Source: an uncultured Acetobacteraceae bacterium (lineage in GTDB: Bacteria; Pseudomonadota; Alphaproteobacteria; Acetobacterales; Acetobacteraceae). From it: 36,164 bases of DNA. Positions 2,131 to 33,671 of the stretch are shown in pieces; positions within the stretch are counted from its first letter, which is position 1, and every line of letters begins with the position of its first letter. Position numbers and translations under genes: made by a program. The notes beneath the pieces were generated by a model that saw nothing but the letters and a program-made list of their open reading frames with translations, did not search any database and had not been told where the DNA came from. The stretch covers positions 1 to 36,164 of the forward strand of contig CAIMEK010000022.1 of assembly GCA_903839965.1 (NCBI GenBank). Reading direction: 5' to 3'.

Positions 2131-2229
2131 TGGAACGGCGATACAATACGAGCTGCCAGAGCAGAACATCTGCTTGCGACGGCGCGGTGGGATACTGCAC
2201 AATCAGACGTTCAACCCGCGGTGTAGGCG

Positions 2230-2844: not shown

Positions 2845-2890
2845 TCTTGCGCCCAGCTGTTGCCCAACCATGCTGCGGCCAAGGGATGTC

Positions 2891-3670
2891 ATGCCACTGA
2901 TCTGCTTCGCCTCGCCGAAGGGCGGTGTGGGCAAGACCACGCTGGCCGCCAACGTGGCGTGCGAGTTGGAGCGCGCGGGAAAGGAGGTGGTGGCGCTCGA
3001 CGTCGACCCACAGAATGCCCTGCGGCTGCCCTTGGGCGTGCCGCTAGGTGAGCGGCTGGCGTTTACCGCGCTGTTGCAGGCGCGACCGGACTGGCGACGC
3101 TGCCTGCGTGCCACGCCCAGCGGCGTCGGACTGCTGGCGCACGGTCCATGCGATCTGGCGGCATCAATCGCGCTCGCCGCCGCGCTAGGCGCTGAGCCGG
3201 AGCTGCTCGCTGGACCGCTGCGCGATATGCTGGCACAGCCTGGGCTATACGTCGTGGCCGACACCATGCCGGGCCCGTCGCCACAGCTCTCGGTGATGCT
3301 GTCGCTGGCCGACCTCGTGGTCACGGTACTGCTAGTCGATGCTGGCTCGGTGTCGCTGATACCCGCAGTGGAGAGCGGCGCCAGCTATGGCGGGACAGTG
3401 CCGGCGCGGCTGGTGTACGTGCTGAACCAGTACGACCCGCGCACGCGACTTGGACCGCTGATTGCCAATGCGGTGGCGCGCCAGCTCGGGACGCGGCTGC
3501 TCGGACGGGTCTACCGCGATGAGCACGTGGCCGAGGCGCTGGCAGCACAGAAGCCAGTGGCCGACTACGCACCGGCCTCGAAGGCGGCACAGGACCTAGC
3601 GCACCTAACGGTTGCGATCGTAGCATGGCTGCAGGCGGCATCGCCGAAGGCCGGCGGGGTGCTGGCATGA
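2891..3670 (+). CDS. bcsQ: BcsQ-like MinD/ParA-family ATPase of the cellulose operon
   Basis: Starts MPLICFASPKGGVGKTTLAANVACELERAGKEVVALDVDPQNALRLPLG, with deviant Walker A KGGVGKTT; overlaps bcsAB by ATGA at 3667-3670. Confidence 0.88.
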   Translation: MPLICFASPKGGVGKTTLAANVACELERAGKEVVALDVDPQNALRLPLGVPLGERLAFTALLQARPDWRRCLRATPSGVGLLAHGPCDLAASIALAAALGAEPELLAGPLRDMLAQPGLYVVADTMPGPSPQLSVMLSLADLVVTVLLVDAGSVSLIPAVESGASYGGTVPARLVYVLNQYDPRTRLGPLIANAVARQLGTRLLGRVYRDEHVAEALAAQKPVADYAPASKAAQDLAHLTVAIVAWLQAASPKAGGVLA

Positions 3671-6600: not shown

Positions 6601-8259
6601 CGGCTGGTATTGCCCTTCGTGCTGCCGACCCAACCCAGCAACGAAACACTGCAGGCTGCGGCGATCATCGCCTCCTGGTTCGGCAACCTGGCGGATTTCC
6701 GTGGGGTGTCCTTCCCAGTGGCGAACGAAGCCCCGGCCGAAGGTAACGCAGTGCTGGTGGCGAGCGGGCGCGACGTGCCGGGCGGGCTGGTGCTGCCACC
6801 GCTGACCGGGCCGACGCTGCTGGAAATGCCGAACCCGAACGACCGGCTGGCGACGCTGTTGGTGATTGCCGGGCGCAACCCGGGAGAGGTGTTGGCGGCA
6901 GCGAGCACGCTGGTGACGGGACCGCGGATGCTGTCCGGCAGCACGATGGCGGTACAGGCGCCGGTGGTGTCGGGGCGCCGACCATACGACGCGCCACGCT
7001 GGATCGCGACCGACCGGCCGGTGCGCTTGGGCGAACTGGTAGACGTGTCAGAGCTGCAGGGTAGCGGTTACCTGCCGGGAACGTTGCACGTGCCGTTCCG
7101 TACCTCGTCCGATCTGTACACTTGGCGGCGTCGGCCCTACACCGCCGAGATCAACTTCCGCGCTCCGCCCGGGCCGATCATCGACGTGGCACCGTCCAGG
7201 TTGGACGTATCGATCAATGGGTTGTTCCTAAAAAGCTACTCGCTTGCACCGGCGGAACGGCCGTGGAGTTGGATCGCCCGGCTGCTCGGCTTTTCGGTGC
7301 CGCAGCGGCGGGAGGCGACGTCGGTGCCGCCTTGGACCGTGTTCGGGCAGAACGACCTACAACTGTTTTTCGATGCACGGCCGCTGCACCGCGGTGACTG
7401 TGTGGCCATTCCCGACGATGTACGGATGTCGGTGGATCCGGACTCCACCATGGACTTCAGCAACGCCTACCACTTTACCGAGCTGCCTGATCTGGCGTTT
7501 TTCGTCAGCTCTGGCTTTCCGTTCACCCGAATGGCTGACCTGTCCGACACCGCGGTGGTGCTGCCGGACCGGGTCGGGACGGTGGAGCTCTCGGCGTTCC
7601 TGACGCTGATGGGACGGATCGGGGCGCTGACCGGCTATCCTGTGCTGCGAGTGACTGTGGTGCGACCGGGCGAGGCGGCGACACTGGCGGACAAGGATCT
7701 GTTGGCGATCGGCACGCTGGCGCATTTCGCAGTGGCGGCGGACCTACTGCGCGAGAGCCCGTACCGGCTGGACGGCAACGCGCTGCGGGTAGTGCTGCCG
7801 AACGCCCTGCGGGGCATCTGGCGGCTGTTCGGCGACCGCACGGACGAGGACCGGGCCAAGGCCGCAACGGCCTTGTCGTCGCCGCTGGGCAGCGGGGCGG
7901 CGGTGATGATCGGTGCGGCGGCACCGTCGCGGCACGGCCACTCGGTGGTAGCCATTCTGGCGGGCGAGCCGCAAGGATTGGGTGCCATGGTGGCCGCGTT
8001 AGGCGACGCCAGGCTGGTGCCCGACATCGAGGGCGACCTGACGCTGCTGGCCGGTGGCAAAGTGACGTCATGGCGGGCCGGACCGAGTTATACGGTGGGC
8101 TATCTGCCGCCTTGGCTGTGGCCGGACTGGCTGCTGCGCGACAACCCGCTGTGGATCCTGGGGTTGATAGTGGTCTCGGCCGGCATGCTCGGATTGGCAC
8201 TGCTGCGCATCCTCGTTTGGAGCGCGGCGCGGCGGATCGGGTGGCGGCGGCCGAGCTAG
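3667..8259 (+). CDS. bcsAB: Fused cellulose synthase catalytic subunit/periplasmic subunit (BcsA-BcsB)
   Basis: GT2 motifs DDGRR, DCD, FFCGS, TED and QRMRW; PilZ RxxxR and DLSLGGG; then an internal signal-peptide-like segment MGNKAVAAVVMALLLPVAAWAQ and BcsB-like domains, with a C-terminal TM helix, in one ~1530-aa ORF. Confidence 0.95.
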   Translation: MRVRLLRLFVDDTAVPHGIEWGVIALLGVVGALLVWTAVTVSLDSLHQAALAVGTMLVFLVCNRVPGRPMTLFLMVLSSAVSLRYILWRFTETLDFATPLQGMLGTGLALAELYAFLVLALGYLQMVWPLERKPVPLPADPEDWPTVDVYVPTYNEDLSIVRATVLAAMTLDWPRDKLRVYILDDGRRRVFRDFAAATGAGYIIRPDNEHAKAGNLNHAMKLTDGEFIAIFDCDHIPTRAFLQMTMGWMVRDERMALIQTPHHFYSPDPFQRNLSAGSRVPPEGNMFYGMIQPCNDFWGGAFFCGSCAVLRRTALDSIGGVATETVTEDAHTALKMHRKGWKSAYLRIPLAAGLATERLMLHIGQRMRWARGMLQILRIDNPARGVGLSLGQRLCYFNAMFHFCFAVPRLVFLTSPLAFLFFNQNVIAASPLAIVAYALPHIFHTVATNARLQGRWRHSFWSEIYETTLALFLVRVTVVTLFNPRAGKFNVTDKGGLLGRGFFDTGAVYPNLILGLILVLGLLRGLYGIAFQHPDTLAFQALLLNSVWVCFSLLIVMGALAVGRETRQIRHSARVRARVPVTVLLPDGRALQGMSHDLSLGGGALLVDRVEDVPPDTSVDLEFAVGAERLLVPARLLRWEGPFLRIAWRKDTIEAETRVMQLVFGRPDAWLDWDQFPDDKPLASLWRVLVSIRGLFRPKGQLLAASDLPAKTPPAQPVAEGTLARQSFVLPPRGAVAGTGRGKAMGNKAVAAVVMALLLPVAAWAQLPPAAPSTSPPIVRPYASPVPLLPSATPPAAPTAPAVPAGQAGPSSVPPLPPVGPETRRVVLTMRDLGATEPMTMRGATPIQGVLFGIRNDEVVTDARLLLSGAMSPALIPEFSAVTVTLNEQYIGTIQAERDHPQVGPVEMPVNPVFFQDRNRLNFRFTGRYTEQCNDPLSGLLWATVSDRSTLTLTIARLPPQRDLVRLPLPFFDQNLRTRLVLPFVLPTQPSNETLQAAAIIASWFGNLADFRGVSFPVANEAPAEGNAVLVASGRDVPGGLVLPPLTGPTLLEMPNPNDRLATLLVIAGRNPGEVLAAASTLVTGPRMLSGSTMAVQAPVVSGRRPYDAPRWIATDRPVRLGELVDVSELQGSGYLPGTLHVPFRTSSDLYTWRRRPYTAEINFRAPPGPIIDVAPSRLDVSINGLFLKSYSLAPAERPWSWIARLLGFSVPQRREATSVPPWTVFGQNDLQLFFDARPLHRGDCVAIPDDVRMSVDPDSTMDFSNAYHFTELPDLAFFVSSGFPFTRMADLSDTAVVLPDRVGTVELSAFLTLMGRIGALTGYPVLRVTVVRPGEAATLADKDLLAIGTLAHFAVAADLLRESPYRLDGNALRVVLPNALRGIWRLFGDRTDEDRAKAATALSSPLGSGAAVMIGAAAPSRHGHSVVAILAGEPQGLGAMVAALGDARLVPDIEGDLTLLAGGKVTSWRAGPSYTVGYLPPWLWPDWLLRDNPLWILGLIVVSAGMLGLALLRILVWSAARRIGWRRPS

Positions 8260-8268
8260 GAGCAGGCA

Positions 8269-11200
8269 ATGTTTTCAGCCACGTTTTCTCTCGTTCTGGC
8301 CCTGCTGGCCGCTCCCGCTGCCGCGGTGGCACAGACGCCCGATGTCCCGGTTGCCGCCGCGCCGTCCGATGCGACCAAGGTGCTGATTGACCAGGCGACC
8401 TACTGGATGTCGCAGAACCAGCCCGCACAAGCCCGACGCGCCCTGGACCGGTTGCTGCGGCTGGAGCCGCGCAACGCCGACGGGCTGGCGCTGCAGGCGC
8501 TGTTGCAGGCAGGCCAGGGCGACCGCACCGGGGCGCAGGCTAGTATGACGCTGCTGCGCCAGATCCGGCCCGACGACCAACGGCTGGCCACGATCGAGCA
8601 GACGTTGCGGGCCAGCGCGCTCGATTCGACAGGCCTGGCCGACGCCCGCCAACTGGCCACCGGCGGACGACCGGCGGAGGCCGTGGCGCGCTACCAGGGG
8701 CTGTTCCGCAACGGTCCGCCCCCGGGCCCGCTGGCGGTGGAATACTACCAGACCCTGGCTGCCACGCCCGGTGGGTGGGATCAGGCCCGCGAGGGTTTGG
8801 GGCGGCTCGCCGCCAATGCGCAGGACTTGCATGCGCAGTTGGCCTATGCCGAGCTTCTGACCTATCGGCCGCCGACGCGCGCCGACGGCATCGCCCGGCT
8901 TGCCGCGCTGGCACAAAACAGCCCGGTAGCCGCAGCAGCGACCAAGGACTGGCGGCAGGAGCTGGAATGGCTGCCGGTGGATACGTCCAGCATCCCTGCC
9001 TACCAGGCTTACCTCGACCACCATCCCGACAATGCCATCGCGCAGCTTCTGCAATCGGCGCGCAACCCACCACGCACTCCGGCCGACGAGGCAGCTCAGC
9101 GGCGCAGCGCCGGGTTCGCCGCACTGAACGCCGGGCGCCTGGCCGAGGCGGACACCGCCTTCCACGGGGTGCTGGCGCAGAACCCCAACGACGCCGATGC
9201 GCTGGGCGGGCTCGGGCTAGAGCGGCTGCGCCAGGGGCGTACCGAGGAGGCGCGCGAGCTGCTGAGCCGTGCCATCGCCGCCGACCCGGCCCGCAAGGCG
9301 CGCTGGGAACAGGCCTTGGCCGGAGCGAGCGTGAGTGATGACTACGCGCGCGCACGTAGTATGATCCAGCGTGGCCAGCTTGGCCCGGCCGAGCAGTTGC
9401 TGCGCGGCATCATCGGCCGCGGGGGTGATGTGGCGGGGGCGCAGGGTATGCTGGCCGATCTGTTGGTCCGCCGTGGTGATCTGCCGGGGGCCGAGGCGAA
9501 CTATCGCGCCGCGCTAACGCGCCAGCCCAACAATGCGGATTTGCTGGTGGGGATGGCGCAGGTGCTGACCCGGCAGGGCCGTGACGCCGAAGCTGACGCC
9601 TTGCTCGCGCGCATCGAGAGCACCGGCAAACGCGATGCGATCGGGCGGCTGCGCGCCGACCAGCTACGCCAGCGTGCTGCCACCCTGGCCGATCCGATGC
9701 AGAAGGTGGCGCTGCTGCGCACCGCCACCGAGGCTGACCCGTCCAATCCATGGATTAAACTCGACTTGGCGCGGGCGCTGAGCGCTAGCGGCCAAAAGAC
9801 TGAGGCACGCAATATCATGGCCGGCTTGGCGACCGGCCGCAGCACCGACGCGCTGCGCGCTTCGGCGTTGTTCGCCACCGAGGATGGTCGGCCGGCCGAC
9901 GCCGCCAGCATCATCGCCCGACTGCCGGCAGCGGCGCGTGGGCCGGATCTGCAGGGGCTGCTGGCACAGGCACAGGTGCAGACGGACATCAGCGCCGCCA
10001 TGGCACTGGCTGCCACCAGTCCGCTTGCGGCGCGGCAGAAGCTGCTCACGTTGGCAGCCGCCCCCGACCCGGATGGCGGGCGTGGGGTGGCGATCGCGCG
10101 TGCCTTCACCGAATTACGCGACCCTGCCGGTGCACGCGAGGCGCTGGCTACCGCCCAGGCGGCCACGCGCACCCCGACGCCGGCACAGCGTCTCGCCTAT
10201 GCCGGCGCGCTACTGGCCGCTGGTGACGAGACAGGTGCACGCACGCTGGTGGCCTCGCTGCAGAGCACAGGCGGGCTGACCGCCGACCAGCAGGCGGCAT
10301 TGGCACAGCTGCAGCTGGGCATGGCGGTGCGCGCGTCCGACACGCTGAACGCCGACGGGCGGCCGGCCGATGCATACGACACGCTGGCCCAGGAGCTGAC
10401 CAAGAATCCAAACGATCCAGCCCTGAACCTGGCGCTGGCGCGGCTCTACCAGAGCACACAGGATCCACGCCGAGCATTGAGCATCAGCCTGGCGGTGCTG
10501 TCGCGCAACCCCAGCGACATGATAGCGCGGCGCGCTGCTGTGTCGGCAGCGATCCAGACGCGGGCTTTCGATCGCGCCGAGGCGCTGGTGCGCGAGGGGA
10601 TGCAGCTTGCCCCCAACGACCCGCAGGTCTGGATAATATCGGCCGACCTAGCGCGGGCCCAGGGTAACAACCGGCGCGCTTTACAGGATCTGCGCACGGC
10701 CCGCTCGCTGCGTGAACAGCAGATGGGAGTGGACGCGCCACCAGCCGGCCGGCAAGGCGTGCAGGTAGCGTCGTTGATGCAGCCTCCTGGCACGCCGGAG
10801 AGCAACCCGTTCCGCCGCAGCCAGCCGACCTCGCTGTCGGATGCCTCGCCAGTGATGCCAGGACTCCCGCCGGCGGATGCGACTCTGGCCGACATCGACC
10901 GCCAGATGACCGGCCTGCGCGAGGAGCTGGCGCCGAAGGTGACGCTGGGGCCGGGACTGCGCGTGCGTACCGGTACGGCGGGGCTCGACCAGCTGAGCGA
11001 GGTGACCACACCTGTCGAGCTGATGGTGATGCCGTTCGGCCGCGGCCGCGCCACCATCATGGCGATGCCGACCTTCCTGTCGGCCGGCGAGATACCACAG
11101 AACGCCGCAAGTCAGGCCAAATTCGGCACCGCGGCGTTCGGCGGTAAGCCGCTGCCACCAAGCCAGCACGCCGAGGGCGTCGGCTTCGACGCCGCATACG

Positions 11201-12015
11201 AACTGGGTTGGCTGCGTGCCGATGTGGGCAGCACGCCAGTCGGCTTCCCGCTGCAGAGCATCCTCGGCGGGGTGGAGCTGTCACCGCAACTCGCGGACGG
11301 GGTGTTGCTGCGGCTGCGTGGCGAGCGGCGGGCAGTCACTGATTCGGTACTGTCGTATGCCGGCACGCGCGACACCACCAACCGCACGCTGTGGGGCGGC
11401 GTAACGCGGACTGGTGGGCACGGGCAGTTAGAGTTTACGTCGGGCCAGGCGAATTTCTACGCTGGTGGCGGCTGGGCCTCGGTGAACGGCACAGGCGTGG
11501 CATCCAACACCACCTTCGATTTCGGCGCCGGTGGCAATTATCCAGTGTGGCGCAACGGCAGTGATGAGGTACGGCTGGGGTTTGACCTGGTATATTTCGG
11601 CTACGACAAGAACCTGCGGTACTTCTCGTTGGGGCACGGTGGGTATTTCAGCCCGCAAAGCTATATCGCTGCGCTGATACCCGTATCGTACACCTCGCGC
11701 AGCGACACCCTGACCTGGTCGGTCGGCGGGGCGCTCGGCTATCAGACCTATCACGAGAACACCGCACCGGTGTTCCCCAACGATGCGCGGCTGCAGGCGC
11801 TACTGGTGTCGCAGGGCGGCGGCCCGACAGGGCTGACTGAATATCCGGGCCGCAACGCCTCCGGCATCACCGGTTCCGCGCGGGGCAGCGTGGAATACCG
11901 AGTGAACACGGCGTTGCTGCTGGGCGCGCGGGGAAACTACCAACACGCCGGCAATTGGAGCGAGTTCGGGGGCGCGCTGTATGCCCGTTACATCTTCAAC
12001 GGAGACACCCGGTGA
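8269..12015 (+). CDS. bcsC: Cellulose synthase outer-membrane export subunit BcsC (TPR scaffold plus C-terminal beta-barrel)
   Basis: 1248 aa; signal peptide MFSATFSLVLALLAAPAAAVAQ; many TPR-like repeats; C-terminal barrel ending GGALYARYIF. Confidence 0.95.
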   Translation: MFSATFSLVLALLAAPAAAVAQTPDVPVAAAPSDATKVLIDQATYWMSQNQPAQARRALDRLLRLEPRNADGLALQALLQAGQGDRTGAQASMTLLRQIRPDDQRLATIEQTLRASALDSTGLADARQLATGGRPAEAVARYQGLFRNGPPPGPLAVEYYQTLAATPGGWDQAREGLGRLAANAQDLHAQLAYAELLTYRPPTRADGIARLAALAQNSPVAAAATKDWRQELEWLPVDTSSIPAYQAYLDHHPDNAIAQLLQSARNPPRTPADEAAQRRSAGFAALNAGRLAEADTAFHGVLAQNPNDADALGGLGLERLRQGRTEEARELLSRAIAADPARKARWEQALAGASVSDDYARARSMIQRGQLGPAEQLLRGIIGRGGDVAGAQGMLADLLVRRGDLPGAEANYRAALTRQPNNADLLVGMAQVLTRQGRDAEADALLARIESTGKRDAIGRLRADQLRQRAATLADPMQKVALLRTATEADPSNPWIKLDLARALSASGQKTEARNIMAGLATGRSTDALRASALFATEDGRPADAASIIARLPAAARGPDLQGLLAQAQVQTDISAAMALAATSPLAARQKLLTLAAAPDPDGGRGVAIARAFTELRDPAGAREALATAQAATRTPTPAQRLAYAGALLAAGDETGARTLVASLQSTGGLTADQQAALAQLQLGMAVRASDTLNADGRPADAYDTLAQELTKNPNDPALNLALARLYQSTQDPRRALSISLAVLSRNPSDMIARRAAVSAAIQTRAFDRAEALVREGMQLAPNDPQVWIISADLARAQGNNRRALQDLRTARSLREQQMGVDAPPAGRQGVQVASLMQPPGTPESNPFRRSQPTSLSDASPVMPGLPPADATLADIDRQMTGLREELAPKVTLGPGLRVRTGTAGLDQLSEVTTPVELMVMPFGRGRATIMAMPTFLSAGEIPQNAASQAKFGTAAFGGKPLPPSQHAEGVGFDAAYELGWLRADVGSTPVGFPLQSILGGVELSPQLADGVLLRLRGERRAVTDSVLSYAGTRDTTNRTLWGGVTRTGGHGQLEFTSGQANFYAGGGWASVNGTGVASNTTFDFGAGGNYPVWRNGSDEVRLGFDLVYFGYDKNLRYFSLGHGGYFSPQSYIAALIPVSYTSRSDTLTWSVGGALGYQTYHENTAPVFPNDARLQALLVSQGGGPTGLTEYPGRNASGITGSARGSVEYRVNTALLLGARGNYQHAGNWSEFGGALYARYIFNGDTR

Positions 12016-12431
12016 CACTATTTCTGCGCGCCCTGGCGGCGGAGATCGATGGACAGGCCGGAGCGGCTGGGCGCGATGCGCTGCTTCGCGCCGTGGGACG
12101 GCGGATGGCGGCGCTGGCAGCGCTGGCGCCGTTGGCGCCGGGGGCCTCGCTGGAGGCTTTGGAGGCGGAGATGAACTCGGCGCTAGAGGCGATGGGCTGG
12201 GGGCAGGTACGGCTGATACTGCTGGAGGCAGAGCGAGCGCTGGTATTCACCCATGCCGGGCTGCCACGCACGGGCGGACTGGGTGAGCCTCCCGGGGCGT
12301 GGCTGGGAGCGGCGTTGGAGGGGTTGTACGAGGCGTGGATGGCGACGCAGCCCGGGGCTGAGGCAGGGATGGCGGCCCGGCGGACACCGGGCGGGACGGG
12401 GGAGGTTGTGGTGAGGTATGCGCGGGAGTAA
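12012..12431 (+). CDS. bcsD: Cellulose synthase subunit D (BcsD), GTG start overlapping the bcsC stop
   Basis: MTLFLRALAAEIDGQAGAAGRDALLRAVGRRMA...LEALEAEMNSALEAMGWGQVRL; position after bcsC and size ~139 aa. Confidence 0.85.
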   Translation: MTLFLRALAAEIDGQAGAAGRDALLRAVGRRMAALAALAPLAPGASLEALEAEMNSALEAMGWGQVRLILLEAERALVFTHAGLPRTGGLGEPPGAWLGAALEGLYEAWMATQPGAEAGMAARRTPGGTGEVVVRYARE

Positions 12432-13206: not shown

Positions 13207-13560
13207 ATGGTTCAGGTGAGCGTCCTGACCGGGCCGGAACGACGGCGACGGTGGAGCGAAGCACAGAAGCTGGAGTTGTTGGCTCAGGCGTTCGGGCCGG
13301 GCGGCAACCCGACTGGGACGGCGCGCCGCGCGGACGTCTGCACGAGCGTGCTGTATCGCTGGCGGCGGGCGTGCATGGCGCCGGTTGAGCCGGCGGGCTT
13401 CGCTCCGGCGGTGTTGATCGAGGGGCCGGTACCGGTGCCACAGCCGGAGCAGCGTAATGAGCCGGCGATCGTGGTGGATCTGCCTGGCGGAGCGCGGGTG
13501 AACGTGATGGCGGGTGCGCCGACGGCGCTTGTGTCGGCGACGTTGAAGGCGTTGCGATGA
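13207..13560 (+). CDS. tnpA: IS66 family accessory protein TnpA (HTH)
   Basis: RRRRWSEAQKLELLAQAFGPGGNPTGTARRADVCTSVLYRWRR; ATGA overlap with tnpB. Confidence 0.88.
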   Translation: MVQVSVLTGPERRRRWSEAQKLELLAQAFGPGGNPTGTARRADVCTSVLYRWRRACMAPVEPAGFAPAVLIEGPVPVPQPEQRNEPAIVVDLPGGARVNVMAGAPTALVSATLKALR

Positions 13561-13904
13561 TCCCGGTCCCCGCGAACATGCGGGTCTGGATCGCCACCGG
13601 CCATACGGACATGCGCCGGGGCATGATCGGGTTGGCGCTGCAGGTCCAGGAGGGCCTGAAGCGGGACCCGCACGCGGGCGATCTCTATGTCTTCCGTGGC
13701 AAGCGCGGCGACCTGATCAAGGTTCTTTGGCACGACGGGATCGGTCTATCGCTCTACGCCAAGCGGCTGGACCGAGGCCGGTTCGTATGGCCCGCGGCCA
13801 ACGGTGGGCCGGTGGCGATCACGCCGGGGCAGCTGGGCTATCTGCTTGAGGCGATCGACTGGCGTAATCCGCAACACACCTGGCGTCCGACGAGTGCCGG
13901 ATAG
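13557..13904 (+). CDS. tnpB: IS66 family accessory protein TnpB (IS66 Orf2)
   Basis: MIPVPANMRVWIATGHTDMRRGMIGLALQVQEGLKRDPHAGDLYVFRGKRGDLIKVLWHDGIGLSLYAKRL. Confidence 0.95.
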   Translation: MIPVPANMRVWIATGHTDMRRGMIGLALQVQEGLKRDPHAGDLYVFRGKRGDLIKVLWHDGIGLSLYAKRLDRGRFVWPAANGGPVAITPGQLGYLLEAIDWRNPQHTWRPTSAG

Positions 13905-13976
13905 GCCGCAATTTTCCTTGCCGGGCCTGCATTTAGGGGTACCCCAAGCGGCGGTTTTTGTGATTCCATCGGGGGC

Positions 13977-15629
13977 ATGGACCACGTGGCCATGCCCAGG
14001 TCGGAGGATGTCGAAGCGCTCAGAGCCGCGCTGGCGGCGGCCGAGGCGCGCGCCGACGAGGCGGAGGCTGAGTTGGCTGCCGCCCGCGCCCAGACCTCCG
14101 ACGACCAGGCCCAGATTGCCCATCTGAAGCTGCAGATCGCCAAGCTCCAGCGACAGCTGTTCGGAACGCGGTCGGAGCGGACGCAGCGCCTGCTCGATCA
14201 GCTCGAACTGCGGCTCGAGGAGCTGGAGGCCAGCGCCAGCGAGGACGAGATCGCCGCCGAGATGGCTGCGGCCAGGACGACGACCGTGCCGGGCTTCACC
14301 CGCAAGCGGCCCTCTCGCCAGCCCTTCCCCGAGCACTTGCAGCGCGAGCGCGTCGTCGAGCCGGCGCCCTGCGCTTGCCCGGCCTGTGGCGGGGCGCGCC
14401 TGTCGAAGCTGGGCGAGGACGTGACCGAGACGCTGGAGGTGATCCCGCGCCAGTGGAAGGTGATCCAGCACGTCCGCGAGAAGTTCTCCTGCCGGGACTG
14501 CGAGGCGATCAGCCAGGCGCCAGCGCCGTTCCATGTTACCCCGCGCGGCTGGGCCGGCCCCAACTTCCTGGCCATGCTGCTGTTCGAAAAGTTCGGCCAG
14601 CATCAGCCGCTCAACCGCCAGGCCGAGCGCTACGCCAGAGAGGGCGTGCCCTTGAGCCTGTCCACCCTGGCCGACCAGGTGGGCGCCGGCGCCGCCGCGC
14701 TCATGCCGCTCTTTAGGCGCATTGAGGCCCACGTCCTGGCCGCCGAGCGCCTGCACGGGGACGATACGACCGTGCCGGTGCTGGCCAGGGGCAAGACCGA
14801 CACCGGCCGGCTATGGGTCTATGTGCGCGACGACGGCCCCTTCGCCGGGCCGGCTCCGCCGGCAGCGGTGTTCTACTACTCGCGCGACCGCCGGGCCGAG
14901 CATCCCAAGGCCCATCTTGCCGGGTGGAGCGGCCTCCTGCAGGCCGATGCCTATGGCGGCTTCGGCGACCTCTATGCCGCCGACCGCAGGCCTGCGCCGA
15001 TATTGGAGGCGAGCTGTTGGGCGCACGGCCGCCGCAAGGTCTTCGAACTGGCCGATGTCGAGACGGCCGCCATCAAGAAGGCGCGCGGCGAGAAGCCCAA
15101 GCCGGTCTATCCGCTGGCGTTGGAGGCGGTGCGGCGCATCGACGCTCTCTTCGCCATCGAGCGTGAGATCAGTGGCCTGACGCCAGTCAAGCGCCTGGCC
15201 GTGCGCCAGGTCAGGAGCGTGCCGCTGGTCGCCGAACTTGAAGCCTGGATGACCGAGACGCGAGACAAGCTCTCGCGGGGACACGATCTGGCGAAGGCCT
15301 TGAACTACATGTTGCGCCGCTGGACGTCCTTCACCCGCTTCCTCAGTGATGGCCGCATCTGCCTGACGAACAATGCCGCCGAGCGCGCCCTGCGTGGCGT
15401 GGCCTTGGGTCGGAAGGCATGGCTCTTCTGCGGCTCCGATCGCGGCGGCCAGCGTGCCGCCGTCCTCTACAGCCTGATCGTCACCGCCAGGATGAACGAT
15501 GTCGATCCCCAGGCCTGGCTCGCTGACGTCCTCGCTCGCATCGCCGAGCATCCCGTCCAAAGGCTTGATGAGTTGCTGCCCTGGAACTGGAAGCCAGCAA
15601 GATTGCGGGCGCAATCCATGGCGGCCTGA
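13977..15629 (+). CDS. tnpC: IS66 family DDE transposase TnpC
   Basis: Coiled-coil N-terminus, FGTRSER, CPACGG zinc-finger region, HGDDTTVPVLARGKT, GRICLTNNAAERALRGVALGRKAWLFCGSDRGG. Confidence 0.96.
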   Translation: MDHVAMPRSEDVEALRAALAAAEARADEAEAELAAARAQTSDDQAQIAHLKLQIAKLQRQLFGTRSERTQRLLDQLELRLEELEASASEDEIAAEMAAARTTTVPGFTRKRPSRQPFPEHLQRERVVEPAPCACPACGGARLSKLGEDVTETLEVIPRQWKVIQHVREKFSCRDCEAISQAPAPFHVTPRGWAGPNFLAMLLFEKFGQHQPLNRQAERYAREGVPLSLSTLADQVGAGAAALMPLFRRIEAHVLAAERLHGDDTTVPVLARGKTDTGRLWVYVRDDGPFAGPAPPAAVFYYSRDRRAEHPKAHLAGWSGLLQADAYGGFGDLYAADRRPAPILEASCWAHGRRKVFELADVETAAIKKARGEKPKPVYPLALEAVRRIDALFAIEREISGLTPVKRLAVRQVRSVPLVAELEAWMTETRDKLSRGHDLAKALNYMLRRWTSFTRFLSDGRICLTNNAAERALRGVALGRKAWLFCGSDRGGQRAAVLYSLIVTARMNDVDPQAWLADVLARIAEHPVQRLDELLPWNWKPARLRAQSMAA

Positions 15630-15631
15630 CC

Positions 15632-15865
15632 ATGCAGCGCAACAAGGTCCACCACGTCTACACAGTCGGTAGCGTCGCCAAACGCCTCGGTATCGACGAA
15701 GATCTCATTCACGAGCTGACCGTTGGCCTGGAGCCCGAAGACGGCGTCATCTGGGTCTATGGGCTCGACGAAGACGATGGAACACTGGCCTTCACCGACG
15801 ACGGCGTCGAGGAGGTTCGGCTCCTCCTGGAAGAATACCGCCGCCTGGCACCCTCAAAATCCTGA
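15632..15865 (+). CDS. Small passenger protein of the IS66 element
   Basis: 77 aa immediately after tnpC and inside the IS ends: MQRNKVHHVYTVGSVAKRLGIDEDLIHELTVGLEPEDGVIWVYGLDEDDGTLAFTDDGVEEVRLLLEEYRR. Confidence 0.75.
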   Translation: MQRNKVHHVYTVGSVAKRLGIDEDLIHELTVGLEPEDGVIWVYGLDEDDGTLAFTDDGVEEVRLLLEEYRRLAPSKS

Positions 15866-18042
<2,177 letters not shown>

Positions 18043-19972: not shown

Positions 19973-20004
19973 AAAAAAATGTGCCATGGCCCGAACGGGC
20001 CATG
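19973..20004 (-). terminator. Rho-independent terminator downstream of the MscS-like gene
   Basis: Perfect 8-bp stem CATGGCCC-GAAC-GGGCCATG (19985-20004) with a T7 tract on the minus strand, 15 nt beyond the stop at 20019. Confidence 0.85.
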
Positions 20005-20018
20005 CGCGGTGCGGCCCT

Positions 20019-21475
20019 TCAATGCTCCAGCCCGGGCGTAAGATCCGGCAGCGCCGCGAGCATCAGAACCTCGTCCCTGGCCTGCAGCCTGCGGTCACAG
20101 AGCAGGGCGCCGGCCGCGTCCCGCCGCGCGCTGAACCATAGGCCCGGGCCGAAGGCCGCCGAACCGCCGGGCTGCAGCGTCCCGAGAAACGCCACGCGGG
20201 CCGGCTCGTTCGGGATTTCCTGCGCCACCTGCCGGTACAGGTCGTCCAGATCGGCGGAGGTCCGCGTCACCCGGGCAACGGCATACTCGGCATACGGGCC
20301 AATGCACGTCGCCAGCTCGCCCGTGATCTGCTGCACGGCGGCGGCCCGCCCGCCGCGGCGTAGGTCCAGGCCCGCGGGGCCGGCGGCGCCGTCGGCCACG
20401 CGGATGTCGACCAGGGTCTCCGCCTCGCCGCGCAGCAGCAGGAAGCGCCACCCTTCGGTCCGCTCGGGCAACGCGAGCCGCTCTCCCGGCGCGTAGAGCA
20501 GGCACTCGCCGCGCTCGGCGAGATGCTGCGCCTGCTCCGGGGTCAGACCCGGCAGGCCCGCCAGGATCAGCGGCGCGATCTCCGCTGGCGCGCAGTCGGG
20601 AAACGGGGCGGCGGCCGTGTCCCCGCCAGCGCGATCCGATGCCGCTGGAAGCCGTACCAGAGCCAGCGGTACACGTCGGCCTCGGCCCCTACCAAGTCCT
20701 GGTAGTGGGCGACCCAGTAGCGGATGCGGTAGCGGGTCGATGCGCTGCTCGCCTCCCATTCCAGCGGCGCCGCCGAGACCGACCTGGCCCGATCGACGAG
20801 TAGGGAGTCGGCGATCAATTCCGAGGCCAGCCCGACGACCAGTTGCGGCGGCACCGCGCAGGGCAACTTGATGGCGACCTCGGAGCGGACCGAACGGTCC
20901 CGGGGCAGGATCTCCAGCTCGCCGTCCGATAATTTGGCGTTCGGCAGCATGACAGCCGCACCGTCGGACCGCCGCACCACGACGTTGCGCCATGTCATCG
21001 CTTCCACCTGCATGGCCTCGCCGTCGCGCACGATCCCGTCGCCCACCCTGAGGGTGCGATCGCTGCTCAGCTCAACGCCTGAGATCATGCTGTCCAGCGT
21101 GGGCTGCATAGCGAGGCCGATCGCGGCCGTCACGGCCGAGGTGGTCAGCAGCGCCCGCACGTCGAAGCCGAAATGCTCCAGCACGGCATACGCCACCACC
21201 AGGGCCACCGCGGCGTGGACCAACAGGCGATGCAGCGCGGTCGGTGCCGCGCCGCCGCGGCGGGCCGTGCCGAGATTGAGGATCAGCCACGCTCCGCCGA
21301 ACACCAGCGCGATCGCGCTGGCGGCCACGGCCGCGGCGGTCGTCCCGGTCCTGACCTCTCCCGTGCCGAGCACCGGGCTGCTCGCCGTGAACGCCACGAA
21401 AAGCCACAGCAGGATGGCCAGCAGCCCGGCTCCGAGCCCTCCCGGACGCGACCGGAAACCTGGCAGGAGGGTCAT
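20019..21475 (-). pseudogene. MscS-family channel with C-terminal cNMP-binding-like domain; apparent single-base frameshift
   Basis: Frame 1: MTLLPGFRSRPGG...TM helices...TTSAVTAAIGLAMQPTLDSMISGVELSSDRTLRVGDGIV...; frame 2 continues GDTAAAPFPDCAPAEIAPLILAGLPGLTPEQAQHLAERGECLLYAPGERLALPERTEGWRFLLLRGEAETLV. Switch point is the C4 run at 20621-20624. Confidence 0.8.
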
Positions 21476-22383
21476 GTTTCCTTGCCCTCCGGCCTGGCCT
21501 CGGCGTTGAGCGCCGCCAGCGCCTTGTCGAGGCTCGTGCGCAGCCGTTCGATGGCGGCCCCCAGCAGGCGAATCTCGCGCACTCCGCTGTGCGGCAGGCG
21601 CGGCGATGGCGCGGCGGACAGGCTCTGCCCGTCGGCGGCGCGGGCGAGTTCGGCGAGCGGACGGGCGACCATCACATCCAGCGCCGCGGAGAGCGCAAGA
21701 TAGGCGACGACGAACACCGCCAGGAGGCCCGCGGCCAGGATGCCGACCAGGCGGACGGTGCCGCGCAGCGGTTCGGTGAGGGGCACGGTCAGCATCTCGG
21801 CCCCCACGGTCTCGCCCATCTGCCAGCCGAACCCGTTGTTCGGCCCGTAGCGCGCGACCATGCCCGCCGGCGCCCGCTCCGACGTGCTGTGGCACTCCAG
21901 GCAGACGGTGTCGGTCACCCGTATCGACCGCGCCAAGTAGAACAGCTTGTCGGTTCCGGCCTCCCGCACCCCGGTCGCCTCGTCGAGCGCAGGGTTGTCG
22001 CGAAAGCGCCTGATCACCTCGATATCGAACGGTTCGGAGCGGTCGTTCGGGTTGGTCGGGCTCATCGAGGGGAAGCGGAACGTGTAGAGCTGGGCCGTGC
22101 CGCTGACCGAGCGGAACACGGTCTGCGTGGCATAGAAAGGCACCATCTCCTGGTAGAACTCGTGCGAGGGCAGGCCGACGAGTTTCGGCAGGATGTGCGT
22201 CTCGGTGTAATTGCCCACCGCATTGGCGGAGGCGAGCATGATCCTCGCCTCCCGCTCCGCGGTTCGGAGCGCTTCGTCATAAAGCAGCAAATAGAAGCCA
22301 CCCACGCCGGCCAGCAGCGCCAGCGTGAACACAGTGATGAGAATCCGACTGATCAAACGCCCGATATCCGGAACTTCCGACAT
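21472..22383 (-). CDS. DUF3365 (Tll0287-like) membrane protein with CXXCH heme motif and HAMP-like segment
   Basis: N-terminal TM; EFYQEMVPFYATQTVFRSVSG..; VCLECHS (CXXCH); second TM followed by VARPLAELARAADGQ; ATGA overlap with the MscS-like gene. Confidence 0.8.
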   Translation of the reverse strand: MSEVPDIGRLISRILITVFTLALLAGVGGFYLLLYDEALRTAEREARIMLASANAVGNYTETHILPKLVGLPSHEFYQEMVPFYATQTVFRSVSGTAQLYTFRFPSMSPTNPNDRSEPFDIEVIRRFRDNPALDEATGVREAGTDKLFYLARSIRVTDTVCLECHSTSERAPAGMVARYGPNNGFGWQMGETVGAEMLTVPLTEPLRGTVRLVGILAAGLLAVFVVAYLALSAALDVMVARPLAELARAADGQSLSAAPSPRLPHSGVREIRLLGAAIERLRTSLDKALAALNAEARPEGKET

Positions 22384-22551: not shown

Positions 22552-23004
22552 ATGCCCCCCGGGCGCGATATTTCCTTTCTATGGAAAGATTTTTCGGTTT
22601 CTCCATCGGAAGAAAGACATGAGGGCCCCTGCCCCCATTTCCATGCCGACCGGTGCCGAACGCCCGCGGTGGTCGGCAAGGCCGTCGTTTGCGCCGCCGT
22701 GCTGCTCGGCATGACGAACGCGGACCTGGCCCGCACGATCGGCGTCTCGGAAGCGACGGTCTCGCGGATCAGGGTCGGGAGCTACCGCCTCGAGTCCGGG
22801 ACGAAACCCTACGAGCTGTCGCTGCTGCTCATCCGGCTGTTCCGTGGCTTGGCCGCTGTCATGGGCGGCGAGGAAGTCTCCATCGGCTCCTGGATGGAAA
22901 CCGCGAACCTCGCCCTGCGCGGCGTGCCGCGCGCGCTGGTGCAGACGGTGACCGGGCTGGTGGCCACGGTGGACTATGTGGACGCTGCCCGCACTCGCGT
23001 CTGA
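22552..23004 (+). CDS. Xre/MbcA/ParS-type antitoxin of a RES-Xre module (start uncertain, possible 5' frameshift)
   Basis: VVGKAVVCAAVLLGMTNADLARTIGVSEATVSRIRVGSYRLESGTKPYELSLLLIRLFRGLAAVMGGEEVSIGSWMETANLALRGVPRALVQTVTGLVATVDYVDAARTRV; HTH plus DUF2384-like C-terminus; overlaps the RES ORF. Confidence 0.8.
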   Translation: MPPGRDISFLWKDFSVSPSEERHEGPCPHFHADRCRTPAVVGKAVVCAAVLLGMTNADLARTIGVSEATVSRIRVGSYRLESGTKPYELSLLLIRLFRGLAAVMGGEEVSIGSWMETANLALRGVPRALVQTVTGLVATVDYVDAARTRV

Positions 23005-23725
23005 GGCGACCGGCTGGAGCGGCGACCTGTGGCGGCTGGTCGAGAGCCAGTCCGCGGTCGCCACCCTGAAGCTGGTCGACACGCTCGACGAGCAGGCCAT
23101 CCTCGAGGCCGAGCTTGAAGGCAGCAAGCCCCTCGTCCCCGCTTCCTGGGCGCATCTCGACTATCTGCTGGCGACGCCGTTCCGCTACGCCCCCTACCGC
23201 ACCGGCAGCCGGTTCCGCCGCGACCGCCAGACCGACGGCTGCTTCTATGCTTCCGAACGGGTCGAAACCGCGGTCGCCGAAGCGGCCTTCCATGGCCTGC
23301 TGTTCTTCCTCGATGCGCCGGGTGCCAGGCGGCCTTCGAATCCGCAGGAGCGGACCGCGATCCACGTGCCGGGCCGTACCGCGGCGGCCATCGACCTGAC
23401 CGCGCCGCCGCTGGATGCCGATGCGTCGCTCTGGGAGCACCCGACCGACTACGCTCCGTGCCAGGACCTCGCCGACGCGGTCCGCAGGGCTGGCCTGGAG
23501 GTGATCCGCTACCGCTCCGTGCGGGACCCGGGCAGGGGCATCAACCTGGCGCTGCTTTCGCCGGCGGCCTTTAAGGCGACGCGGCCCGACCAGTGGCAGA
23601 CTTGGCACGTTTTCCTGCGCGAGGCCTCGGTGCAGACGGTGCGGGAGATGCCCCGCGCGACCTTCGAAATCACCTTCTCGGCCTGGGCCGCCGATCCCCG
23701 CGTGCCGCTCCGGCTGCCGCATTGA
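22976..23725 (+). CDS. RES-domain toxin
   Basis: LWRLVESQSAVATLKLVDTLDEQAILE...LDYLLATPFRYAPYRTGSRFRRDRQTDGCFYASERVETAVAEAAFHGLLFF; RES-typical R..Y..E residues; directly after an Xre antitoxin. Confidence 0.9.
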   Translation: MWTLPALASEATGWSGDLWRLVESQSAVATLKLVDTLDEQAILEAELEGSKPLVPASWAHLDYLLATPFRYAPYRTGSRFRRDRQTDGCFYASERVETAVAEAAFHGLLFFLDAPGARRPSNPQERTAIHVPGRTAAAIDLTAPPLDADASLWEHPTDYAPCQDLADAVRRAGLEVIRYRSVRDPGRGINLALLSPAAFKATRPDQWQTWHVFLREASVQTVREMPRATFEITFSAWAADPRVPLRLPH

Positions 23726-23753: not shown

Positions 23754-24545
23754 TCACACCCGCGGCGTGCCCTCGGCGAGGTAGCCGCCGTCCACGTAAT
23801 GGATCGAACCGGTGACGTAGCCGGCCGCATCGGAGCACAGGAACGCCACCGTGCGGGCGACTTCGGCGGGCTCGCCCAGCCGGCCGAGCGGCACGCGGCG
23901 CAGCGTGGCGGCGCGCATCGCGACGTCGGCCGGGGCGGTGCTGCGGTAAAGTGGCAGGTTGATCTCGGTGGAAACGGCGCCCGGCGCCACCGCGTTCACC
24001 ATGATGCCGTGCGGGGCAAGCTCCACGGCGAGCTGCCGTGTCAGCATGTCGATGCCTCCCTTGGCGGCGCAGTAGGAGCCCATGTTCGTCTTGCCGATCA
24101 CGCCGTGGATGGAGGAGATGTTGACGATGCGGCCGGGCGCGTTGCGCGCGATGAGGTGGCGTACCACCCGGCGGCTGCACAGGAAGCAGCCGGTCAGGTT
24201 GGTGCGCAGCACATCGTCCCATTCCTGCAACGAGGTCTCCACCAGCGCATTGCGCAGGATGATGCCCGCATTGTTCACCAGCACGTCGATCCGGCCGAAC
24301 CGCGCGAGCACCTGCTACCCCAGCTCCTCCACGGCCGCCTCGCTGCCGACATCGGCCGCGACGGCGATCGCCTCGCCGCCGGCCGCTGCGATGCCGCGCA
24401 CCGCCTCCTGCAGCCTGCCACTAGCATCGCGGTCGACGGCGGCGACACGCGCGCCCTCGGCAGCGAGCGTTTCGGCAATGGCGCGGCCGATGCCGCGCGC
24501 CGCGCCGGTGACCACGGCGACCTTGTCCTGCAGGTTCAAGTCCAT
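23754..24545 (-). pseudogene. Short-chain dehydrogenase/reductase interrupted by an in-frame TAG
   Basis: MDLNLQDKVAVVTGAARGIGRAIAETLAAEGARV...EELG*QVLARFGRIDVLVNNAG...YCAAKGGIDMLTRQLAVELAPHGI...YVDGGY; TAG (cta at 24315-24317) in the same frame as the rest of the SDR. Confidence 0.88.
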
Positions 24546-25039
24546 GTCGTAACCCCATGCCACGGGTGGCCAAGGCCCGCCGGATCAGCGGGCAACCTCG
24601 CCGGCCAACACGGCGAGGTGATCGTCCGTCGGCGCGGGCAATGCGCATTGCGGGCGATTCCAGTTAGTTGCCGGAGTATGGCGGCAATCGAGACGGCTTC
24701 GCAAGGCCGCCGGCCAGCGCGGCGCGGCCGGCGATATCCCCCGTTCCTGTGGACAAGTTTGAGGGGAAAGCCGGGTGTATGCCGCCTCGGCAAGCGCTTT
24801 CAAACTCTTATACGAATTGCCCTGAATCTGGGCAGAAAACCCGAAGCCGTTGAGGGAAATCGTCGCTTTTGTGTTATCGTTGCGAGACTCCTCGGGCTTC
24901 GCCGCTGCACGCATGCCGGAGGCCTCCTGTGCGCAACCCTAAGTCGCGGCGAGGTCCTGCAATCCTCACTGGTTGTTGTGCCGATCACAGGAAATCACAA
25001 TTCTCGCGGCTGCCGAACCGCCGCCCTACAGTGCCGCGC

Positions 25040-26475: not shown

Positions 26476-27857
26476 CATAGGGGCCAACTTTAGGCACGGT
26501 GGCCGACGCGGAGGGTGGTTGCGTGGGTTCTTCGTTGTCGGGGGCGTTCAAGTAGATGGCGGGCCAGGGCTAGGGTTGCTTGGCCCGCAGTGATTGCGTT
26601 GAGTGCGCCACGAATACCTGCGAGCAAGGCGTCACGCAGCAACTGGGTTATCCGCCAGAGTGAGGCGGAACGTTGGCGCATTGCTTGTCGCACAGGGGGG
26701 AGAGTCCAGGACTTCCTGGGTAAGATCGTCAATCAGCAGAGCGAGAATGAGGTGGGCAAGCAGCCAACTTCGGGCCAGGTCGCGACGCTTCGCCGGTAGC
26801 CGATCTAGGCCCAGTTGGCTTTTCAGGCGTTTGAACGCCAGTTCCACCTGCCAGCGCACCCGATAGGCCGCCAGCACCTCATCGAGGCGCACATCCGCGG
26901 GCAATGAGGTCAACAGCATCAGGAAGCCGGCGGATTGCACCGTTATTGGTTGTAGTTCGGCATGACAGCGACGCTTGCTGTGGCCACGCCGCACCCGCCG
27001 CAGGGCCTGCTCGGCAGCCTCGGCCGTCGCGCGCCGCACGATCAGCCGGGCCTCAAACCAAGTCAGGCCGCGTTTCCCAGGGCTGCCCGAGTGCGCCACC
27101 TGCACCCGCCGCTCAATGGCGCAGCCGGGCTGCAAGCCACCGAACAGCGTCTCCCAGACCAGCGGCGTGCCGTCCGCTTGCAGCAAACGCAGGCTGGACC
27201 AGCCGACACGCACAATAAAGTCCGCGCCTTGGTCAAGCACCGACTTGAGAGCGGCGGGCTTGGCGTAATTGCGATCCCCCAAGGCCACATCGCCTGGCTC
27301 CAACCCGGCGCGCGTCAGGCTCTCCGCGCCATGCGCATCGGTCAGATCAAGATCGGTGAAGCAGCTGGACGCGGGATCGTAGGTGGCGTGCAGCCGCCAA
27401 TCGGTGCCGCGGCTGCCGGGCTGAGTGATCACGCTGCCATCAACAATACGCAGCCGCCGGCCCGGCAGAAATGCCGCGGCCCGGTGCAATCCAACGTCGC
27501 GACGCAGCAGCGCACCCGCAACCTGGCCCAGCCAGTCCGAAGCATTGCGCACTCGCTTCATCACCGCCGTATCCGACATCTCCGCCAAACCGCTCACCCC
27601 CGCCCAGGCGGCTGCGGCTCGCAAAGACAGGCCTCCGGGTCCGTAGGCAAGCGCCAGCCGAAGCAGCATCTCGCCGCTGCGTATCTCTCGTTTGCGGATC
27701 AACGCCTTCATGGCCAGGACGCTGGTGTCCAGGTCAATCAGCCCAGACACCTTCGAAACCACATCAGGCCAGTGCGACGTTAGCGTGGCTGCGTTCTGCA
27801 TCCTCGCCATGAATCATGCCTCATCCCGCGTCGATAAGCCTAAAGTTGGCGCCTATG
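26476..27857 (-). mobile_element. IS4-family insertion sequence
   Basis: Terminal inverted repeats CATAGGGGCCAACTTTAGGC/CATAGGCGCCAACTTTAGGC; 11-bp target duplication GGGCAGAGCCC at 26465-26475 and 27858-27868. Confidence 0.93.
26632..27810 (-). CDS. IS4-family transposase
   Basis: RLRIVDGSVITQPGSRGTDWRLHATYD; GDVALGDRNYAKPAALKSVLDQGADFIVRV; YRVRWQVELAFKRLKSQLGLDRLPAKR (Y-(2)R-(3)E-(6)K). Confidence 0.95.
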   Translation of the reverse strand: MARMQNAATLTSHWPDVVSKVSGLIDLDTSVLAMKALIRKREIRSGEMLLRLALAYGPGGLSLRAAAAWAGVSGLAEMSDTAVMKRVRNASDWLGQVAGALLRRDVGLHRAAAFLPGRRLRIVDGSVITQPGSRGTDWRLHATYDPASSCFTDLDLTDAHGAESLTRAGLEPGDVALGDRNYAKPAALKSVLDQGADFIVRVGWSSLRLLQADGTPLVWETLFGGLQPGCAIERRVQVAHSGSPGKRGLTWFEARLIVRRATAEAAEQALRRVRRGHSKRRCHAELQPITVQSAGFLMLLTSLPADVRLDEVLAAYRVRWQVELAFKRLKSQLGLDRLPAKRRDLARSWLLAHLILALLIDDLTQEVLDSPPCATSNAPTFRLTLADNPVAA

Positions 27858-30186: not shown

Positions 30187-30336
30187 GGACTCTACTGACG
30201 CCCCCGGGGCGGTGGATTCGTCCTCGGCCAGCAAAACTTATCCCCAGGACTCTACTGACGGGGATTCGGACTCTACTGACGCGACTCGGAGTTGTCCCCT
30301 GGACTCTACGCAGGGGGAATTCGGACTCTACTGACG
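30187..30336 (+). repeat. Reiterated IS-end motif GGACTCTACTGACG (four exact, one degenerate copy)
   Basis: Copies at 30187-30200, 30247-30260, 30268-30281, 30301-30309 (partial) and 30323-30336; inverted copy CGTCAGTAGAGTCC at 30870-30883. Confidence 0.9.
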
Positions 30337-30783
30337 CGACTCAACGCCCTGGCCTACGCTGGGAAGACGCAGCGCCGGATCGTCTCCGCCTGGATCGGCA
30401 CCGCCTTTGCCCAGGACGATGCCACCGCCGCCCGCAAGCAATGGCGCCAGGTTGCCGACCTGGCCAGCCCCCGCGTGCCCAAACTCGCCGCGCTGATGGA
30501 AGAGGTAGAGGACGACGCACTGGCTTACATGGACTTCCCTGTCCAGCACGGGACCAAGCTGCACAGCACCAATCCGCTCGAACGTCCCAACGGCGAGATC
30601 AAGCGCCGCAGCGAGATGGTCGGTATCTTTCCCAACGAGGACGCCGTCGTCCGTCTCATCGGCACGCTGCGGCTTGAACAGAACGATGATTGGGCGGTCC
30701 AGCATGCCCGCCATATGTCGCTGAAAACCATCGCCCAACTCAGCGATGATCCCATGGTCAGCTTGCCGCCATTGGCGGCCTGA
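30328..30783 (+). pseudogene. IS256-family transposase C-terminal fragment
   Basis: KTQRRIVSAWIGTAFAQDDATAARKQWRQVADLASPRVPKLAALMEEVEDDALAYMDFPVQHGTKLHSTNPLERPNGEIKRRSEMVGIFPNEDAVVRLIGTLRLEQNDDWAVQ; mutator/IS256 C-terminus with the N-terminal two thirds absent. Confidence 0.88.
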
Positions 30784-32072: not shown

Positions 32073-33191
32073 CTACGCGGCGTATCTTTCCTGGCATGCC
32101 AGCCGCGACAGCAGGATCAATGCCGCGGAATAGTAGTCTGGTGAAGCCCTAACTGCGGGTAGATCGAGTGGCACATCGATTTTTTGTTCCCGCGGCACCG
32201 ACGCCACACGGGCAACTGCCGCCATGCCCGGCGGTGCACGATATTGCGCGCGTGCGCCGGTCACCAAATCCACCCAGGCTGGCGGGTTTGCGTTCCGTGC
32301 CCAGAAACTGACAAACGCGTCCTGCGCTTCCCGACACCTCCCTCCCGACCAGGCCAGGTACAGCGGAACTCGAATGGCGTCGTAGGAGAATCGCGGCGGC
32401 CAATGTGGATGCGGCTCCAAGGAACCATCCCGTCCCACCCGCAGCCAATCCGGTGGCAACCGCCAAAACCCGAACCGTCCAGCGTCAATCAACTTCTGCC
32501 CGTCCGCAGAAAGCTGCGACCAAAGCGGGGACGGCACGGCCTCCGCCAGTTCCGCCAGCATGGGGAATGCATAATAGGACGGGTTGACGGTCACGCTGTC
32601 GGCAAAATCAAACCCCTCGGCGCCGGGCAGCAGCACGGTATGCGCGCCGAGCGTACGCACCAGCAGTCGCAACATGTCTCCCGCGATCCGACGCGCCAGC
32701 GTGGCATGCTCCGCGCATCCCCACCGCCGCGCGGCGCGCCACAGTGCACAAGCAATGAAGAGATCGCCATCGGTGGCGTTGTTCCAATCGGCAACCCGGA
32801 AGGGCAGGTTGGGCTGGTAGCGCCATGCATGCAGGTAGTCGGAAGGGCGGCGCAACGTGGCGATCGTCCAGGCCAGGATAGATTCGAATGCGGGCCGATC
32901 GTTGAATGCGACCGCAAACAGCAACCCCCACCCTTGGCCCTCGCTGTGCGAGCAGTCACCATTCCCAGTATCGATGATGCGACCATCCGGCGCTAGAAAT
33001 CGCCGCTTGAATTCCTCCCACTCGCAGCGACCGACGGCCACGAAATCGGCGAACCGCACACTGCCGCGCTGTGCAACCGCCGGCTTGGCCAAGGAAAATT
33101 GCGATACTCCCACCGTGGCAGAAAACGCTGCCGCACGAACCAAGCAACGCCGCGAAACCAGAATGGACTCAGCACACTTTTGATTGCGCAT
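32073..33191 (-). CDS. Second GH8 endoglucanase, BcsZ paralogue outside the bcs operon
   Basis: IDTGNGDCSHSEGQGWGLLFAVAFNDRPAFESILAWT...DWNNATDGDLFIACALWRAARRWG...VNPSYYAFPMLAELAEAVPSPLW; full length with signal-like N-terminus. Confidence 0.9.
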   Translation of the reverse strand: MRNQKCAESILVSRRCLVRAAAFSATVGVSQFSLAKPAVAQRGSVRFADFVAVGRCEWEEFKRRFLAPDGRIIDTGNGDCSHSEGQGWGLLFAVAFNDRPAFESILAWTIATLRRPSDYLHAWRYQPNLPFRVADWNNATDGDLFIACALWRAARRWGCAEHATLARRIAGDMLRLLVRTLGAHTVLLPGAEGFDFADSVTVNPSYYAFPMLAELAEAVPSPLWSQLSADGQKLIDAGRFGFWRLPPDWLRVGRDGSLEPHPHWPPRFSYDAIRVPLYLAWSGGRCREAQDAFVSFWARNANPPAWVDLVTGARAQYRAPPGMAAVARVASVPREQKIDVPLDLPAVRASPDYYSAALILLSRLACQERYAA

Positions 33192-33671
33192 AACCACTCT
33201 CCATCCCACATGCAGACTGCATGCCGATCTCGTCTATAGTTAGCGTCGCATTACGTTATTCCATTCTGGAGGCGATCGATTGGCCGCAAGGTCAGAACCG
33301 TGCCACAAACTAGATGCATCGAATGCGTCCAGATTGGAATCACTAGGCAGGTATTTTAGTACCGCTTTTTCCCACCAGCTGTCAGCCTGGTCGGGATGAC
33401 TAGTCCTTTCGGGGGACGGGACACCCCCGGGCATATTCCTCGAGCCGATACAATTCCCCGCCAAGTGCCGTTAGGGGAGCCCATCGGCTCGTCCCAACGA
33501 GAAGCGAGGCCCCGCGCGAGTGGCATTCAGACACCGAGGGCCGGCCAACCCGAACTCCCTTGGCTTCTCTTGGCCGGATTGAATAGGGGCCTTCCTCCAC
33601 GCCGATACGCAACGCGCCGGTCCAGTGATGGATGCCGATGGCGATCGATGTGGCGGAAGCAGCACCATGCC

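Follow-up and report, generated by a model that had tools for sequence, protein, structure and literature searches.

A haem-Cache/HAMP receptor gene paired with Ser/Thr kinases or MscS-type channels that carry a common tail module

HAMP-terminated receptors that lack an output domain are commonly treated as orphans, and a two-gene locus of an uncultured Acetobacteraceae bacterium raises the question of what such a receptor might act on. The locus lies in a stretch of 36,164 nucleotides (contig CAIMEK010000022.1 of assembly GCA_903839965.1), which was analysed as a whole and is referred to here as the window. A sequence-only reading had described it as a candidate signalling operon in which a DUF3365-HAMP haem sensor is translationally coupled to an MscS-type channel with a cyclic-nucleotide-binding-like C-terminal domain. 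The features on which our analysis rests are collected in Table 1.

Table 1. Features of the receptor-channel locus, in window positions
Feature	Position	Strand	Evidence
Sensor gene	21472..22383	-	PF11845 Pfam match; 58% identity to Crenalkalicoccus homologue
CLECH codons, c-type haem attachment motif	21896..21910 (approximate)	-	sequence; aligns with family motif
ATGA overlap (channel start codon and sensor stop codon)	21472..21475	-	sequence
MscS-type pore ORF	20567..21475	-	PF00924 E 7e-8; alignments with relatives
Frameshift interval, pore frame to C-terminal frame	20570..20640	-	three-frame translation; nine intact homologues
Channel C-terminal domain, out of frame with pore	20019..20624	-	homology; AF2/Foldseek of homologous domain
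Tail module (IGPYAEYAV...)	20172..20342	-	kinase-only HMM E 1.6e-7; alignment
Terminator-like hairpin with T run, after the operon	19985..20004	-	hairpin/T-run scan

The receptor gene and its frameshifted neighbour

The predicted sensor matched PF11845 (formerly DUF3365; Tll0287) in Pfam at E 1.1e-30, from profile position 3 to 144 of 144, and PDB entry 5b82 at E 2.4e-4. Its layout consists of a transmembrane segment, a periplasmic haem-c Cache domain, a second transmembrane segment (TM2) and a HAMP domain, without any output domain, in agreement with the earlier description. The start codon is at 22383, with an alternative farther upstream at 22422, and the stop codon occupies 21474-21472. 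The CLECH motif, within the sequence VCLECHS, sits in the periplasmic part of the protein; among 62 relatives of the sensor, CxxC was invariant and CxxCH was present in 92%. The HAMP domain, located after TM2, gave 18.2 bits in the window sensor, under the Pfam cut-off of 25 bits, and 32.7 bits (E 9.4e-8) in the intact homologue L027, and the sensor matched the AF1503 HAMP structure at E 0.016, which bears out what had been read as a HAMP-like linker. Genes for Ccm-type haem assembly are present in the window's genome, and we infer that the sensor is loaded with haem. Five kinase-linked sensors, which form a single clade, carry CATCY in place of CxxCH and have lost the axial His; these may carry no haem or rely on a different ligand.

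The channel start codon and the sensor stop codon overlap in the expected ATGA, an arrangement that, judged from the sequence, makes translational coupling of the two genes likely. Four-base overlaps between sensor and partner were also present at five other loci. The terminator proposed to close the operon was recovered as well: a scan found five terminator-like sites in 3 kb, compared with 1.2 expected in shuffles, and the site listed in Table 1 is the one directly past the stop codon.

The second gene departs from its earlier description, in which an MscS pore continues directly into a cNMP-binding-like domain. Both the pore helix and the beta domain of MscS were recognised in the pore ORF (PF00924 E 7e-8; the model of a homologue resembles MscS structures). 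Homology to relatives, however, stops at about 20627, from where the ORF continues out of frame for about 20 codons up to a stop codon, and the C-terminal part lies in another frame. In relatives, pore and C-terminal domain occupy one intact ORF of about 480-515 aa, and each of nine aligned homologues showed a single continuous channel frame. The sequence-only reading had overlooked this frameshift; of its observations, the sensor, the overlap, the terminator and the tail sequence stand, and the channel as a single ORF does not. As assembled, the window copy would yield the pore part only and not the full channel.

The C-terminal frame is about 40-43% identical to relatives, and its GC content by codon position is still coding-like (0.81/0.55/0.90), so that the frameshift is either recent or an assembly or sequence error in the MAG. 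We give even odds to the explanation that the unit is a decaying pseudogene in this strain, with a truncated, tail-less MscS pore as the only channel product. The frameshift itself, an in-frame stop near 24315 in a short-chain dehydrogenase gene of the same contig and the many insertion sequences close by argue for decay. Coding composition and about 40% identity retained in the C-terminal frame argue against it, as does the quality of the assembly: the window spans an entire contig of a fragmented MAG (88% complete, 966 contigs, 7% contaminated), so that the shift might reflect an error of assembly or sequence. With its channel copy broken, the unit may lack function in this strain. A programmed frameshift is not favoured, because the G-rich site near 20628-20620 lacks a slippery heptamer, the frame is continuous in the nine relatives and another gene on the contig is broken too. 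Separate translation of the C-terminal piece was likewise rejected, as its frame has no well placed start codon before 20471.

Kinase and channel partners of the receptor

Among 100 related genomes, the sensor query was positive in 18 and the C-terminal query in 5; in the three closest relatives, the two genes are adjacent and a single ORF encodes pore and C-terminus. When named genomes were scanned, the sensor-channel pair was recovered from Crenalkalicoccus roseus, Pseudoroseomonas aestuarii, P. rhizosphaerae and P. coralli, and it was also present in Roseomonas sp. E05, Roseicella sp. DB1501, an Acetobacteraceae MAG and Ciceribacter sp. L1K22. Sensors that are more distant but have this domain layout were found directly upstream of Ser/Thr kinases. 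We surveyed the family by PF11845 in 398 genomes and fetched the loci around the positives (67 genomes). The gene next to the 64 near-full-length sensors was a kinase in 50 cases, an MscS channel in 10 and neither in 4, and five strong cases from other families or classes added four kinases and one channel. In total, a tail-bearing Ser/Thr kinase is the partner at 54 loci and a tail-bearing MscS channel at 11, window included. The channel loci are spread over Acetobacteraceae, Rhizobiaceae and another alphaproteobacterial family. These results substantiate the proposed co-occurrence of a DUF3365-HAMP sensor with an MscS-type channel as a conserved two-gene unit.

The pairing did not extend to MscS genes or PF11845 proteins of other kinds. 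No sensor was detected next to the tail-less MscS genes of nine loci, and at a further one, L053, the nearby PF11845-like match was weak, partial and on the other strand. Conversely, no tail-bearing neighbour was present at eight divergent PF11845 proteins or at short stand-alone ones, which represent separate branches of the family. A maximum-likelihood tree of 67 sensors placed all eleven channel-linked sensors in one clade (support 100/98) beside the kinase-linked ones, and a species of the window's own genus carries the kinase version. A single channel-linked clade points to one output swap, most simply a replacement of kinase by channel in which the tail was retained.

The usual partner resembles the PknB-like Ser/Thr kinases that occupy a PpkA-like position in type VI secretion clusters. 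Several kinase loci adjoin type VI secretion genes (TssK, FHA, TssM, TagF and VgrG-like). The kinase of the pair is cytosolic, with one or two tails at its C-terminal end, and its receptor is a separate haem-HAMP protein. Other genes were observed around the kinase pairs. A caspase-like (Peptidase_C14) gene identified by Pfam precedes the pair at L036 (7167-8219), and Peptidase_C14-like ORFs were seen by eye at three other loci. At L030, a protein combining Fer2 and guanylate/adenylate cyclase domains (4150-5937, minus strand) is divergent from the pair. L126 has two sensor genes at one locus (2279-6460), just one of them followed by a kinase.

A tail module in two unrelated outputs

The helical-tail sequence quoted by the sequence-only reading is real and lies in the C-terminal frame; what had been overlooked is that, by sequence similarity, the channels have this tail in common with the Ser/Thr kinases that usually partner this sensor. 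It is about 55 aa long, with the consensus L..hIGPiA.vLV.Raa....l..L...LA..I.....R..FL, and is short and helical in AF2 models; kinases carry one or two copies at the C-terminal end, often two. An HMM built from kinase tails only was run over the 7953 ORFs from all fetched loci and found the channel tails at E-values from 1.3e-14 to 1.7e-4. Its matches were sensor-adjacent kinases and MscS channels apart from two others, namely a broken-kinase fragment (L140) and the window's own C-terminal ORF. The window thus has both the tail (E 1.6e-7) and a sensor gene directly upstream with a four-base overlap. A comparison of profiles A3 and A4 was partly circular, as A3 includes channel tails, and was excluded from the evidence. 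When 337 genomes of the class were searched for the tail first, six contained it, all six with the sensor directly upstream, and none of the 337 had a tail outside sensor-linked genes. The tail was rejected as a known domain, since no Pfam entry matched it and the PDB held no convincing sequence relative, the sole match being partial, at E 0.02, and regarded as chance.

On this distribution we lean towards the tail being a coupling element between receptor and output. It could instead be merely an oligomerisation or membrane-docking element of both outputs, with the sensor acting via another part. A short, helical and often doubled tail would suit that role, and both kinase dimers and MscS heptamers assemble; its absence outside sensor-linked genes in the 337 genomes, however, better fits a partner-specific role, and we regard mere oligomerisation or docking as improbable. 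Conserved adjacency could also come from shared regulation instead of direct coupling. The two proteins would then be uncoupled neighbours, the sensor signalling elsewhere and the channel being an ordinary tension-gated MscS that protects against the same stress. The MscS pore is indeed typical, operon proximity by itself is no proof of contact, and other partners are conceivable for HAMP-only proteins. Nevertheless, the tail occurs only in partners of this sensor family, which are of two unrelated types, an enzyme and a channel, and the sensor is absent beside tail-less MscS genes. We therefore consider uncoupled co-regulation unlikely, and it is very likely in our judgement that receptor and channel (or kinase) act together.

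Channel fold, ligand and a model of coupling

The AlphaFold2 model of the intact Roseomonas sp. E05 channel (pLDDT 75) contains an MscS pore, which matched MscS structures with a Foldseek E of about 1e-12. Because the search with the whole channel gave MscS matches only, the C-terminal domain of this channel was folded and searched alone. The resulting model (pLDDT 74.5) consists of beta strands, the helical tail and again beta strands, and its top 50 Foldseek matches in the PDB were almost exclusively cNBD structures, with probabilities of about 0.9-1.0 and weak E-values, the best being 0.014. In contrast, the intact channel homologues gave no sequence match to cNMP_binding (PF00027) even at E 5-10, a profile search found no PDB cNBD, and the usual GE...R pattern of the phosphate-binding cassette was absent by eye from the expected segment of the homologue alignment. 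A classical cNMP-binding domain was therefore rejected at the sequence level. Taken together, the model and the missing sequence match and cassette suggest a fold that probably derives from a cNBD, is broken up by the tail and need not bind a cyclic nucleotide. The cNMP-binding-like domain proposed earlier is suggested by the model, at weak E-values, and not by the sequence. With the conserved co-occurrence described above, neither of the two outcomes named as refuting the sequence-only reading came about.

The channel might still be a classical bCNG-like MscS, its C-terminal domain being a binding site for cAMP or cGMP and the haem sensor a mere neighbour or one that feeds a cyclase elsewhere. 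The likeness to bCNG-type MscS lies in an MscS pore with a C-terminal domain behind it whose model is cNMP-binding-like and nearest to cNBD structures. Against it stand the lack of a cNMP_binding match in any intact homologue and of a recognisable phosphate-binding cassette, and the inserted tail that interrupts the fold. This makes a bCNG-like channel highly improbable, and gating by cyclic nucleotides, which the sequence-only reading had implied, is very doubtful; what remains of that interpretation is its conserved sensor-channel pair and the resemblance of the modelled C-terminal domain to cyclic-nucleotide-binding folds. The obligate pairing with a haem receptor also sets the channel apart from the bCNG type. 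E. coli MscS shares the pore and the beta domain with the channel (PF00924; Foldseek E about 1e-12) but has neither a C-terminal regulatory domain nor a receptor partner.

With regard to the ligand, a 2026 preprint (PMC12889525) renames the PF11845 domain sCache_heme and reports CXXCH in 99%. Its Cluster 2 proteins with HAMP have in common with the window sensor a periplasmic Cache fold, CXXCH haem and two TM segments. One protein described there, from P. azotoformans, has two TM segments, a Cache-haem domain and HAMP, the same architecture without an output domain; it bound NO with slow dissociation and did not form a stable O2 complex (PMC12889525). These data concern a distant homologue of the window sensor, and by this analogy NO is a reasonable candidate for the physiological ligand, at somewhat less than even odds. 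The available part of the preprint (PMC12889525) names no partner gene; what is added here is the identification of partners, tail-bearing kinases or channels, as the next gene. A full-text search of open-licence literature found no paper linking MscS channels to such sensors.

Our best reading, to which we assign a probability of roughly 0.55, is that a trans-acting periplasmic gas or redox receptor gates the MscS channel through the tail. Binding of a small ligand, for which nitric oxide is the leading candidate, or a redox change at the sensor haem would twist the helices of HAMP, and the HAMP end would engage the tail of the adjacent channel. This tail lies within a degenerate cNMP-binding-like fold beneath the pore, and gating would change as a result. 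The same receptor family would, in most bacteria, drive a soluble Ser/Thr kinase with one or two tails, and the channel would be one derived replacement of that output. We hold more tentatively the specific form of this reading, that a periplasmic NO (or redox) receptor opens or closes a separate channel by direct HAMP-to-tail contact, the kinase having been swapped for a channel that kept a portable coupling module. Genomics names a partner for an output-less HAMP receptor, and two unrelated outputs have in common a short module without a Pfam entry. If the tail is the contact, it would explain how a transmembrane receptor signals to a separate, unfused protein, assign an output to the newly described haem-Cache NO sensors and predict a gas-sensor-controlled bacterial channel testable in E. 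coli. Trans-acting transmembrane receptors would then have, in effect, a plug-in output system.

The surroundings of the locus were also annotated. Directly upstream of the sensor and divergent from it lies an Xre/MbcA/ParS antitoxin and RES-domain toxin-like pair (22552-23725, plus strand). The short-chain dehydrogenase gene with the in-frame TAG (23754-24563, minus strand) is close to the frameshifted channel. The contig is rich in insertions, with transposase genes at 13207-18042, 26632-27810 and about 30292-30783; they comprise IS66, a DDE_Tnp_1 transposase, a short transposase remnant seen by eye and an IstA/IstB-like pair with a weak Mu-transposase C-terminal match. A cellulose synthesis cluster occupies 566-12431 and includes a fused BcsA-BcsB (1544 aa), BcsC and a GH8 endoglucanase, and a second GH8 gene is located at 32073-33209, 20 kb from this cluster.
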